64,000 bases of DNA. Source: Nemopilema nomurai. Taxonomy: Eukaryota > Cnidaria > Scyphozoa > Rhizostomeae > Rhizostomatidae. Where the stretch lies: assembly GCA_003864495.1 (NCBI GenBank), contig PEDN01001362.1, positions 310,001 through 374,000 of the forward strand, in the 5' to 3' direction. Under the pieces are notes generated by a model that searched no databases, was not told where the DNA came from, and saw nothing but the letters and a program-made list of their open reading frames with translations. Shown here piece after piece: positions 9,168 to 42,660 of this stretch (its first letter is position 1; the number at the start of each line of letters is the position of its first letter). The position numbers and the translations under genes were made by a program.

Positions 9168-10696
9168 ATGTTTACAAGTTACAAAAATCCACGTTTGTTT
9201 GGCCTGCCTGCATTTGTTTTGAACTTGAAAATGGCAGAGGCTTCAATTAAGAATCAAGGATTTGCCAATATTGACAAAAGACATTCGCAAGGGGAGAGTT
9301 TTGCCGCAAGATTGAAGGTTCCAGGGAGAGAAGAGAAGCAACGACTGCAAGATCTTGGCAAGGCAATGGATTGGGTGACCAGTCAGTTGGTAAGAACAGA
9401 CTTTCTTGCAAGCTTTTGAAGACATACCGATAGTTGGAAACCTATGTAAAGACGAAAGTGGCGGTCAATTTGAACCGCGGTATAGCCCAAGCTTGAAACC
9501 GTGTAGGATTCTGATGGCTTAAATGGAAGAATTCAATTAGCTAGGGTGTGTGAAATATTGCATTACACCTTGAAACTACTACAGCAAGGATACTTCAACA
9601 TAACCTTTGTTAGTAGATGCGCTAGGATCTATCTATGAGGCTTTCCTAGGCTTAAATTGTCAATTAACAAGATGTGTCCGTTATTGTTCTGTGTCCGCGA
9701 TTGGATTACTTGGATAATAACAAGATATAAAGTGTTTGACTGTGGATCTGCTGGGAAAATTTACGAAGGTAAGTAGAGGGAGAGAGTAAGAAAAAACTAA
9801 AAGGACGTATGATATTCCAGGTGATTGCATATTTATCATTTTGAGTGATTTTTTATCAAAGGCTAGAAATATTATAAGCCTCTATAAATTAAATTAATAA
9901 AAGTTGAACGATCCCATAGTTCGTGGTTCCGGATGGGGGGGGGGGGGGGAGCTAAATTATTGAAGATACTAGAAGTGCCACCAAACAGATTTTATTTTCA
10001 GCAAGAAATTTACTACACATGAGTATCTACAGGCTATAAATTATTGATGAGAATTGTTTCTTGATGAAAATTTTTCTCGAAGCCTCAACGACTCGTTGTA
10101 TGTGTAGTAGAATTGATTGGTAGACATGGGTTGGGTTATTTTTGGATAACTGACCGGCACGGCTAGTATCTAAAGCAATGAAGTGCCCAGTGGAGTGCGA
10201 TGCTTTTTGTAGCTAAGTTTAGAATACTTGTTCAGCTTTTTAATAAGAAATGATAATATTCATATTCACTAAGAAACGATAGAAATCTTGGCTTGTTTTC
10301 AAGTAACACGTTCTGCGTTAAATAGATAAGATTCATTGCTGGTGTGTTTTCGTGCGAGTGAAGAAAAAGCTGTCAAAAAGGGTTTATCTGTCTATTGTCT
10401 AGAAAGAAATGAAAGAAGAGGATCGATACATCATGAAACAATTCGTAGGGATGCGCGCAGATATGAACAAAATTAAGGAAGGAAAGGCAGCGAATCAGCC
10501 GAGAAGATCATCTTTAGACATTCCACGGATACCTGAGGACGGTGAATTTACAGACGTGAAGAAATGCAACATGGACCCTTTCGATGTGGACGATAGCATT
10601 CCACTGCGAAGGAGAGCGTTAACAACAATGGAGTTCTGCTCGAATTCGATGATCAGTCTTGACTGTCGAATGACTCAACGGCATCCAACCAAATAA
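9168..10696 (+). CDS. FAM167-like protein
   Basis: Two exons, 9168-9389 (donor TTG|gtaagaac) and 10403-10696 (acceptor tattgtctag), join in phase 0 to give 171 residues, or 150 from the second ATG at 9231. Residues about 60-100 form a helix, LGKAMDWVTSQL then KEMKEEDRYIMKQFVGMR and ADMNKIK. It matches the conserved C-terminal helix of the FAM167 family in the spacing of the Trp, the E-M pair and the R-x-D-(I/M)-x-x-(I/L)-K end. Human FAM167A and B have 214 and 163 residues, so the length fits. The molecular role is poorly known. After the helix comes a Ser/Arg-rich and acidic tail. This is the only intact copy: the tandem array starts at 10431, inside its second exon. The family call rests on pattern, so it is moderate. 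Confidence 0.6.
9936..9950 (+). repeat. poly-G tract in FAM167-like intron
   Basis: A run of about thirteen G residues in the intron. Similar G-runs lie at about 3920-3932 and 45203-45211. Length is prone to slippage and sequencing error. Confidence 0.7.
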
Positions 10697-11530
10697 GCTT
10701 TGCATTATCATAAATTCTAACACTAAAAATTTGAAAAGAAAACTGTAATTTATACGAGGCTCATGGATTTGGCTTTGGGTTATTCTATTGTAAGAAGAAA
10801 GATATAGCCACTGTGTGTAACTCGTGTTAGAGGTATTTTGTGTACATATGCTGCCTTAGAGATTGTTAATATATAGTTATTGATTAGTGTAATCCTGACT
10901 CATTTAGGCCTTATTTTTACGCACTCCATCTAGCCATATAAATTGCTTAAACAGTGGTATGCTTTGTTTTTCCTGTCCTTTGACTCTTTATTTCTGGAAT
11001 TCTTTCAAAATGTGCCTTTTTTATTCGGGTAAAATGGCAAAAAAGGCATATTGGTTACAGCTGACAAAAGGAAAGAATAAGAGGAGTGGCTTAACGTCAT
11101 GCACAGATGAGCGTCTCCTGAGAGTCATTGAAGTATAATGTATTGAATGAAGCTAGTCGATTACTAACAGGGTATATCCAATGAGGACCAAGGATCATTA
11201 GCCTATTTGTTGAAAAATGAGTGAGTAAAATGAGTAAAAACAAGCCACCAAACTATAACACTTATTTTTTCACATAAAAAATTATTTAGTAAGGATAGAC
11301 TGCCACCCTCGAAAGAGTATCTTTCTGTATACCAAAATCTACTCAAACACCATTGACCAAGATCAATATATAACTATTGATTAACAGCATATATTTATCC
11401 TATGTTACTCTTTGAAATCCGAGTCTATTCGTTCCCTTAAGAAAAGTAAAGTTGAGACACGGTCGCCCTTTTGAACTTCCGTGCTGTTTTGCGCTGGACT
11501 TAAATCTCCTTACGCTGGGTACCAGACTCT
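10697..11530 (+). other. spacer 5' of coiled-coil gene, unit 1
   Basis: AT-rich sequence repeated in every unit (18717, 26822 and 34832 onward). It holds a short ATG frame beginning MAKK (MAKKSDWLQLTEGKPKRSG in units 2-4) that ends differently between units, so coding is doubtful. In unit 4 the stretch 35390-35470 is replaced by short ATATGGAAATCT-type repeats. Confidence 0.4.
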
Positions 11531-11553
11531 TTTTAGGGATTTGATGGCAGTGA

Positions 11554-39631: not shown

Positions 39632-40546
39632 TCGCATCAATGCATTCTACAAGTTTCTAAATACCCACTGTATATATATTTTTGAATACGGACATTATAT
39701 AGCTGATTAATCTCAAATTCAATCCATGTTTAATGTCTTCTCTTGGTCTATTCGAAAATGCAAACTATTTCAGTGCATTGCTGGGCAAAATTCGATTTTT
39801 CGTTAATAGACACGCCACACAGCTCATTGTTAAGAATTTGATTGATAAAATTAGAAGTGGCTACTCAAATCCACCGGCCATTTTTGGTGCTAATACAAGA
39901 TGCTCTCAAAATGTTCTCCCTAAAACCACAAAAAGAGCATGTAGAGGTCTATGGTACAGTTTTATCTAACTCGCTCTTAAAAGAAAAGCTACAGAACAGA
40001 GCATTGGAAAGAGTAGAAGCAAGGACACCCTCGTTTCGACAAGGGCGATGGCGCGTTTCAAAAAGCAAACCTTTTAGCTTGAAGGATTGGCAAGGCCCAA
40101 GGCAATCTCTTTTCTTTGCGTTAATAGTACACAGAAAAACTGGTTGATTGAGTCAGTCATTGCATGGGTTAAAAATCTAGAATACTCAACTCAGCCAATG
40201 CAAAGCTGGTTCCTAAAAATCAGAGACAAAGTCCACCGTTGATAAAACCTCGCATTTAGTTCTAACACAGGAAAAGATAACGGTTGAAACCAAACTGAGT
40301 AAATTTGACAAGGAAGCATTTAATGTCCTCTAAGATTCTATGGTTAAAAATGAAATCAATTATATGCAATAAATAATAAAAAAATCAACAAACTCATTCC
40401 CTCTTTAGTTTCGATAAATTTTTTGACATTAAATAACTATTTACATCCTGGTTATAAGTGGTGGCCGAGTATTAACAAAAGAATTAGCAAGTGCAAATTA
40501 CTTTGAGTTCCTTGCTTTGATCACAATTTGACAAAAGTCCAAAAAA
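39632..40546. other. convergent 3' region, unit 4
   Basis: Counterpart of the unit 1 region. A one-base change merges or shifts the short ORFs seen in the other units, so they are unlikely to be genes. Confidence 0.5.
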
Positions 40547-42215
40547 TTAGAAATGCGATCCCCTTCCCTTCTTGAAATCTTTCACCATCTTTGCCATCTG
40601 TTCCACGCCCTCGTACAAGCCATCACCGGAAACAGCACACAACTGCTGGATGTACCATGGGTTCTTCACAGTGCGCAACCCAAGTTGTTCTATGAGAGTG
40701 CTGGCACTTTGTGCGTTTGGCAAATCTTGCTTATTTGCAAAAACCTTGTAAAAAAAGAAATAATTATTGGAAGTGCAAAATTTTTCAGACGAGATATTGT
40801 TTATTCCTGTTAACTTCAAGAATATTCCACATTGAAGTCAAAGAGCTGACAAGTCTTTGAAGCAGGACTGATGTTAAGAACAACGTAAAAAGCAATATTA
40901 AATTTGCTGCAAACATGCCACCCTACTTTTGGCAGAGAGCATATGTATACAAAGTTGTTGCACATTCAAAGTTAGTTGTAATCATACTAATCTACATCAT
41001 ACACATAAAGCTACCATTAATGTTACAATGCTTTGAAATTGCTAGGCCATATTCACGTGTTGGCAAGCAAAACATTTAACGAGGAAGGCCAAACTTTTAA
41101 TGTTGACAAAAAACGAAGAGGTCCCTCACTGGACTATAAAATCGTTTGTTTATATGAAGATCACTTACCACGAATGGACAATTGGATGTCATATCTTCAT
41201 GTAGGATTATGTTCATAAGTTCCTGTCTCGCTTCGCCAAGTCTAGGGATATCGGCACTATCAACAACAAAGATTAGGCCATCTGTGCCCTGTTGATAAAG
41301 ATACGAAATAAATGAAAAACCCTAGCAGAGATTTGAACAGACAAGAACAACGAATCCATCAAGAGCATTCAAAGATGTTTAAAATTATATTGTTTCACTG
41401 CTTCTAGGCCCTATCTATAGTCAAGTACAAGAGATTGTCTTGTTATACTATCCTTCAGCTTTGCTAAATTATACTTTGTCTCCCAGTTCATGGCCGTTTA
41501 ATAGCTGCCTATATGCTTTAGCCAAAATACACACAGCTACCGTGAGACGCCAAACTCTCTAGCTAGATCCTTATGGGAGGCTTCAACAATTTTCAATTCG
41601 TTAATCATAACAGACATGTATAAATACGGCTATCGATGTTTTTTGTTGGCATTTTTGTGTCACAATTTTTAAAGAAAACTGTTTTGTCGCGAACATTCGA
41701 CCAATAAGCCCATACAACTTGAAACGTAACGAAGCATTTTAGATCATATTATAGAGAAACTAATACGATTGTTCAAAGTTGTTTAATTAAAGCTTTTATC
41801 TTTACCTTGCCTATCTTCATGTCTATATAATTATCTATAATCTATCAAGATATCTTTATACAGGTGTTAATTTTGCACGATTCTACAATTACCAATTCAG
41901 CCTTTCGAAACAAAGAAATGAATTAAAGACAGATAAATAAAAATAAATGTTGCATACCTGAAAGTAGTGCCTCCACAGCTGTCGAATCTTTTCCTGACCA
42001 CCGACATCCCAGACCGTGAAGGTGACGTTTTTCACCGGCGTGACGGTTTCCACGTTGAAGCCGATGGTTGGAATCGTCGTAACATTCTCATTGAGCTTCA
42101 GCTTATACAAAATTGTAGTTTTTCCGGCAGCATCCAGGCCAAGCATCAGTATCCTCGCGTTCTGGGAACCAAAAGAGCTGAACAGAGATACCAGGCGCGA
42201 AAACCATAGACCCAT
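40547..42215 (-). CDS. ARF-family small GTPase, unit 4
   Basis: Exons 41958-42215, 41169-41288 and 40547-40744 give 191 residues with all G motifs intact. It has the long first intron shared with unit 2 (segment about 41693-41790). This copy lies next to TMEM201 in the presumed ancestral head-to-head arrangement, with 445 bp between start codons. Confidence 0.92.
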
Positions 42216-42660
42216 TCTTGATGTATTCGTTTCGATCCTTCAAGAAAGTTGACTTTCAAACACTTCCTGAGCTAGTAGCACCAGACTGATTACTACTTGG
42301 ATCGCAGCGCAATTTATAGCTTGCTAGTTTATGAATCATTTAGAAATAGCTGGCCCTTGTGTGTTGGCATTTTTGGGGGATATTGGTCAGAGCTGGCAGA
42401 TGGAACGATACCACTGTTGCGTCAACGATGTAACGTGTATTCGCCGAAGAGAGGCTCCAATTCTAAACTGCTTACGAGGCTTTTCTCGAAACCAAGAACA
42501 ACATGGACTAATAGATACAAATCTGTTCATCACGGAAAAAAACATCTTTTAATTTTATACTTTATAACATACCAAATGTTTGTACATCGTAAAGAAGCTG
42601 AAATAGTTTAGTCTTATCAATAAGGCAGCATTGGCCTTGTTGTTCACGCTAGCTTGAGAA
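42216..42660. promoter_or_regulatory. presumed bidirectional ARF / TMEM201 promoter
   Basis: 445 bp between the ARF ATG (42215, minus) and the TMEM201 ATG (42661, plus). The array ends at 42624, so all but the last 36 bp is repeated upstream of each FAM167-like remnant. No TATA box is evident. Bidirectional activity is inferred from geometry. Confidence 0.45.

Follow-up and report, generated by a model that had tools for sequence, protein, structure and literature searches.

We describe a tandem gene array in a 64,000-nucleotide stretch of DNA from the scyphozoan Nemopilema nomurai (hereafter the window), which corresponds to positions 310001-374000 of contig C149 (PEDN01001362.1) in a genome assembly of 212.9 Mb and 226 contigs. 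Comparison of the window with itself reveals four head-to-tail units occupying 10431-42627: unit 1 (10431-18450, 8020 bp), unit 2 (18451-26555, 8105 bp), unit 3 (26556-34573, 8018 bp) and unit 4 (34574-42627, 8054 bp), beyond which unique flanking sequence starts. Pairs of units are 95.91-97.68% identical over ungapped columns, far above chance, and this bears out the fourfold tandem repeat claimed in an earlier note on this DNA. Each unit carries a coiled-coil gene and an ARF-like GTPase gene in convergent orientation, and the claim that both frames are intact in every copy also holds, with an ARF-like gene of 191 codons and an open coiled-coil gene in all four units.

Genome-wide protein searches, in which the best candidates only were scored, return four full-length matches to the coiled-coil protein at 97-100% identity and four ARF loci at 92% or above, every one of them situated in the array. 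A search of the genome with the DNA of unit 1 lists 11 fragments, of which five are on contig C24, one (286 bp) is on contig C70 and short ones are on five other contigs; this search did not list the array itself and says little about further full copies. A literature search yielded no paper on this array among the matches listed.

The ARF-like gene lies on the minus strand and has three coding exons, with GT donors and AG acceptors in all four units: 18035-17778, 17209-17090 and 16666-16469 in unit 1; 26139-25882, 25214-25095 and 24684-24487 in unit 2; 34157-33900, 33329-33210 and 32780-32583 in unit 3; and 42215-41958, 41288-41169 and 40744-40547 in unit 4. Each copy encodes 191 amino acids, and all four translations contain the G motifs and an N-terminal MG, a putative myristoylation site. 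The unit 1 protein matches the Pfam Arf domain with an E value of 2.4e-64 (216.4 bits against a cut-off of 22.3), which places it in the ARF family.

The coiled-coil gene lies on the plus strand and has a main and a last coding exon, at 12248-14136 and 14966-15533 in unit 1 (818 amino acids), 20278-22166 and 22983-23544 in unit 2 (816 amino acids), 28379-30261 and 31087-31654 in unit 3 (816 amino acids), and 36380-38268 and 39049-39631 in unit 4 (823 amino acids, with an altered C-terminus). The ATG of unit 1 is at 12248 and the preceding acceptor AG ends at 12204. In all four units a GTAAGG donor follows GGAAAG, and the acceptor TATCTAG opens the second coding exon in matching phase. A frame of 630 amino acids, whose stop codon sits in the intron just past the GT donor, was rejected as the whole gene because the donor and acceptor are conserved in matching phase and because a 1128-amino-acid relative from EukProt, 45% identical, reads through the exon junction; another relative, of 758 amino acids, diverges from the gene at this junction. 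The unknown coiled-coil gene noticed earlier is open in every unit, but its 630-residue frame is incomplete. We found no Pfam family above cut-off in the main exon, the last exon or the 758-residue relative, and no family for the 1128-residue relative in NCBIfam, a prokaryote library.

The array begins inside another gene. The breakpoint at 10431 falls within the last exon (10403-10696, including the stop codon) of a left-flank gene on the plus strand (9231-10696), for which we propose a first exon that extends to 9389; both the start and the pairing of exons in this model are proposals. Truncated copies of this last exon, lacking its start, recur in unit 2 (18453-18716), unit 3 (from 26558) and unit 4 (from 34576), all on the plus strand, the frame being open in the first two and shifted by a deletion in unit 4 alone. 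The hitch-hiking exon, which had been described as a decaying FAM167-like remnant, is the last part of a gene that appears to begin left of the array. Decay has indeed begun in unit 4; the FAM167 label is weak, as the exon matches that Pfam family with an E value of 0.065 (13.9 bits, under the cut-off of 25) and the spliced gene model has no Pfam match at E values up to 0.1.

The junctions between units provide insight into how the array arose. All three inner junctions are identical, with a 5-nt filler, TCAAT, between the two parent sequences, and the filler repeats nearby sequence. Because all three junctions share the same structure and the same filler, a single duplication most likely founded the array. 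As read from these junctions, one end-joining event would have duplicated an 8-kb block beginning inside the last exon of the neighbouring gene and left the 5-nt filler behind, and unequal crossover would then have brought the copy number to four. Duplication as a two-unit block was considered and rejected, as the site pattern 13|24 occurs 30 times and 12|34 occurs 31 times.

The relationships among the units do not follow a nested history, the three 2:2 groupings being found at 31, 30 and 21 informative columns. There are also mosaic blocks in which a single unit is 12-16% diverged while the remaining three are nearly identical. In one of these, situated at approximately 38394-38690 in unit 4 (14262-14600 in unit 1) and about 12% diverged, there are 34-35 differences in 294 sites, and 14 gaps, between unit 4 and the others, whereas units 1-3 differ among themselves at 2-5 of 339. 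In another, at approximately 32794-32990 in unit 3 (16680-16870 in unit 1) and about 15% diverged, unit 3 differs at 23-26 of 146-159 sites and the other units at 2-7 of 177-191. The longest runs of shared variable sites give permutation P values of 0.0005 in four of the six pairs and of 0.019 and 0.034 in the others, values that are not independent as the runs overlap. Changes unique to one unit are clustered in units 3 (P 0.003) and 4 (P 0.001), and clustering is not significant in units 1 and 2 (P 0.08 and 0.11). From the mosaic blocks the array would seem to have a greater age than its mean divergence indicates, and it was probably shaped by gene conversion as well as by unequal crossover; conversion that keeps the units alike would account for both the blocks and the conflicting site patterns. 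Viewed as a gene array, it clearly exemplifies concerted evolution, and its genes have stayed open in each of the four copies.

Both genes have on average been constrained while the copies diverged. The earlier note named ratios of replacement to synonymous substitution (dN/dS, omega) near 1 in both genes as the outcome that would speak against its reading, and neither gene has such a value. A codon model gives the ARF-like gene an omega of 0.129 (log-likelihood -842.5, compared with -847.9 when omega is 1). The coiled-coil gene has an omega of 0.47 (-3958.6 against -3965.5), or of 0.41 (-3733.8 against -3742.0) when codon columns 696-718, which contain a shifted stretch of unit 2, are dropped. 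Doubling these log-likelihood differences gives 10.6, 13.9 and 16.4 respectively. Gap events tell a similar story: the ARF coding sequence has none and the main coiled-coil exon has 0.26 per kb per pair, compared with 7.8 and 14.1 in their respective introns. On these grounds both genes are, on average, under purifying selection since the copies arose. The two products differ in how much they vary. Of the 191 ARF residues 3 vary among the four proteins, while the coiled-coil protein varies more and its last exon most; in that exon of unit 2, losses of 1, 2 and 3 bases jointly preserve the frame. Excluding columns 696-718, unique coiled-coil changes divide into synonymous and replacing as 2:5, 12:6, 7:12 and 9:19 in units 1-4.

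We therefore favour, with a probability of about 0.72, the reading that this is a tandem segmental array founded by one end-joining event and then reworked by crossover and conversion, in which both genes are under selection and the effect would be one of dosage. The likely effect would be more product from one or both genes, that is, a higher dose of a nearly invariant ARF-like switch together with a few coiled-coil proteins that differ slightly from one another. Of the earlier alternatives of dosage or diversification, it is dosage that fits the ARF-like gene.

Several points weigh against this reading. The codon test assumes a single tree, which gene conversion violates, and its null also fixes kappa, so that it is slightly lenient. 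In the last coiled-coil exon gap events number 3.5 per kb per pair, a rate similar to that of the non-coding spacers (4.1 and 4.05), and the unique coiled-coil changes of units 1 and 4 are mostly replacing (5 of 7 and 19 of 28), a hint of weaker constraint there. The copies of the neighbour exon, which are expected to be unconstrained in units 2-4, are diverged by only 1.5%, as little as the coding exons, and low divergence alone is therefore no proof of selection; dN/dS of this exon is uninformative, with 2 to 5 changes for each pair of units 1-3. Clusters of unique changes may come from local mutation rate instead of conversion. An assembly error as the source of the array is also to be considered, although it is unlikely given that the copies are distinct and mosaic and that the sequence contains no N.

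Some of these points would be expected if the array were neutral copy-number variation, present in one individual and destined to be lost. The units are merely 2-4% apart, the copies of the neighbour exon are drifting and that of unit 4 has suffered a deletion, and the last coiled-coil exon collects indels at the non-coding rate. We nevertheless regard neutral variation as unlikely, as both genes have an omega below 1, indels are almost absent from the ARF coding sequence and main coiled-coil exon, and the age suggested by the mosaic blocks exceeds that expected from mean divergence.

A different question is whether the two genes were amplified as a working pair, as the earlier note thought plausible. 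In such a model the ARF-like GTPase and the coiled-coil protein would be switch and effector, co-amplified to hold their ratio. The genes are amplified together, are convergent and are constrained on average, and the long coiled-coil tethers GMAP-210 and Golgin-97 are reported, in the part of the source available, to bind ARF-family GTPases (PMC7876375). In an AlphaFold2 model of the main exon, built from 6 sequences, residues 265-405 and 411-566 are predicted to form long helices; its overall confidence is low (mean predicted local distance difference test score 61, predicted template modelling score 0.21) and it supports long helices only. Other loci weigh against this pairing. Relatives of the coiled-coil gene are found on contigs C70 (44% identity) and C24, and C108 and C21 give weak matches that could be no more than chance similarity between coiled coils; none of the 41 ARF matches in the genome is on C70 or C24. 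The two genes are therefore neighbours only in the array, and their adjacency is not common to coiled-coil loci. The ARF clade is spread across animals, whereas the coiled-coil family has two other protein clusters among the candidates scored (7987 and 1366 in the two protein searches), and the Pfam and NCBIfam scans described above found neither a family nor a known ARF-binding domain in the coiled-coil exons or the relatives scanned. A dedicated partnership is unproven and, judged from these loci, the genome speaks against its generality; we consider the switch and effector model very doubtful and propose instead that the two genes were co-amplified probably as neighbours, not as a complex. 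An isolated 250-bp piece of coiled-coil exon, 97% identical to unit 1, is also present at C24:2879313-2879562.

The ARF-like protein itself belongs to a group that is distinct from the canonical ARFs. It has in common with ARF1 and ARF6 the Pfam Arf domain, the G motifs including NKQD, and glycine 2; it differs in a divergent C-terminus and in having 12 rather than 11 residues between FNVE and WDVGGQ (switch 1 to switch 2), one extra. This pattern is matched in 115 of 122 proteins, with 12 residues in 101 of them, as in the window, and 11 in 14, the latter including the pattern-matching rows labelled ARF1 or ARF6 in our tree. In that tree, 24 non-canonical rows group apart from 9 canonical ARFs with support of 98/94, the 33 rows having been picked and labelled by hand and the bootstrap not being fully settled; the window protein falls outside the ARF1 and ARF6 groups in these 33 rows. 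Among the best 120 of 7990 candidates the closest named match is from Rhopilema esculentum (93%), and a further match among those listed, at 83%, carries a Seg prefix that we take to denote Sanderia.

The ARF-like gene of the array marks a widespread animal ARF-like clade, for which a literature search found no description of function. A comparison can be made with a paper that we take to be that of Vargova et al. 2021. In the portion of that text available, Arl19 and Arl20 are ARF1/6-like offshoots kept in invertebrates and lost from vertebrates (PMC8358228). The window clade is likewise an ARF1/6-like offshoot, the comparison with Arl19 and Arl20 being by description only; it differs in that it includes proteins of Latimeria, lungfish and salamander, whereas vertebrates are without Arl19 and Arl20 in the same portion of the text (PMC8358228). 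ARF-like exons also cluster at C90:487957-501180, some of them interrupted by stops, and ARF genes may be duplicated elsewhere too, perhaps in a second tandem array.

Taken by itself the array is unremarkable in kind; what a specialist would find surprising is an inverted repeat on contig C24. This element (C24:2527677-2530460, 2.78 kb) is built from a broken copy of the coiled-coil gene and is 97.2% identical to its own reverse complement, with arms of 1392 and 1393 bp, 34 mismatches in 1388 aligned columns and almost no spacer. In broken frames, the match to the coiled-coil protein starts at residue 10 in the right arm and at residue 21 in the left and reaches residue 412, and the centre matches residues 491-537. 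The 5' region of the array gene has a counterpart beyond the right arm, where identity is 67% over 231 bp to units 1 and 2 and 85% over about 46 bp to units 3 and 4. When 1395 bases of the repeat are compared with the genome there are 11 matches, namely the repeat itself (2), pieces of the array (8, from the four copies) and C70 (1, at 68%). An Rfam search of two loci covering the repeat gave nothing above gathering scores.

Hairpin-RNA silencers are built in this way, as long inverted repeats homologous to a protein-coding target, and from its sequence this one could in principle silence the array. Exact 21-mers that it has in common with the coding sequence of the coiled-coil gene number 9, 13, 28 and 25 for units 1-4 respectively; it has none in common with the 7171-bp C70 locus, the unit 1 ARF-like gene or two flank pieces. 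With up to 2 mismatches allowed the units have 154-182, C70 has 2, and the unit 1 ARF-like gene and the two flank pieces have 0; with up to 3 the units have 277-327, C70 has 21 and one flank piece has 1. The longest exact stretch in common with the array is 41 nt, in unit 3. Exchange between unit 3 and the hairpin was considered and is not supported: of 10 sites unique to unit 3, 4 agree with the hairpin, 4 with the other units and 2 with neither.

By analogy with Dox, Nmy and Tmy in Drosophila simulans, a diverged coiled-coil copy might have been inverted and duplicated so that its transcript folds back, and the coiled-coil gene would be in conflict with, or regulated by, this locus, amplification raising its dose against small-RNA silencing. 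The near-absence of a spacer, the 21-mers common to all four copies and absent from the C70 paralog, and the restriction of the genomic DNA matches all suit this proposal, as does the lack of any other inverted repeat of at least 150 bp in the window or any of the 63 other loci scanned (of 75), a thin background as the 63 loci overlap and several are inside the array. Two adjacent Dicer-dimer pieces are above cut-off on contig C122, although one has an in-frame stop codon. Endogenous small interfering RNAs are reported in Nematostella, whereas most unique ones of the sponge Amphimedon come from overlapping antisense transcripts and not from hairpin RNAs, according to the available part of that source (PMC6211395). 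Two further points tell against silencing: for the greater part of each arm identity to the array reaches only some 77%, and there is no clear sign of sequence exchange with unit 3. On balance we find a conflict with, or regulation by, the C24 locus improbable.

In Drosophila simulans, hairpin-RNA loci silence selfish genes (PMC10317233, from the part available), and as far as the available text of this and a related paper goes (PMC10317233, PMC10292708) those loci resemble C24 in being inverted-repeat gene copies with paralogs amplified elsewhere. They differ in that small RNA, drive and testis function are described for them, whereas the C24 repeat is a candidate locus, and in a cnidarian. 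In its fullest form the proposal would make the array and the repeat an endogenous RNA interference conflict, in which a lineage-restricted, fast-evolving coiled-coil gene amplifies, the hairpin silences the array and spares C70, and the ARF-like gene is a passenger; this we hold to be quite unlikely. If the repeat makes small RNAs, a gene-versus-hairpin conflict of the Drosophila type would be present in a cnidarian.

The remainder of the window contains several other features. Near its left end a PHD-finger stretch lies at 379-666 on the plus strand (27.5 bits against a Pfam cut-off of 24). A 135-amino-acid, secreted-looking precursor is encoded at 1000-1407 on the minus strand, acidic in its middle part and strongly basic at the C-terminus, which is reminiscent of cnidarian antimicrobial peptides and presumably of the Hydra arminins; its sole match in the genome is itself. 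Open stretches at 6779-8166 on the minus strand give weak short-chain dehydrogenase matches under the cut-off. To the right of the array, the neighbouring gene starts with an N-terminal Ima1 domain (43201-43545, plus strand, E value 2e-12) and is presumably TMEM201. Acidic and lysine-rich open stretches at 51159-62776 on the minus strand, of which three pieces were scanned with no family above cut-off, have the look of what we take to be a NOC2-type nucleolar protein, and a U5 spliceosomal RNA gene lies at 57896-58012 on the minus strand (96.7 bits).

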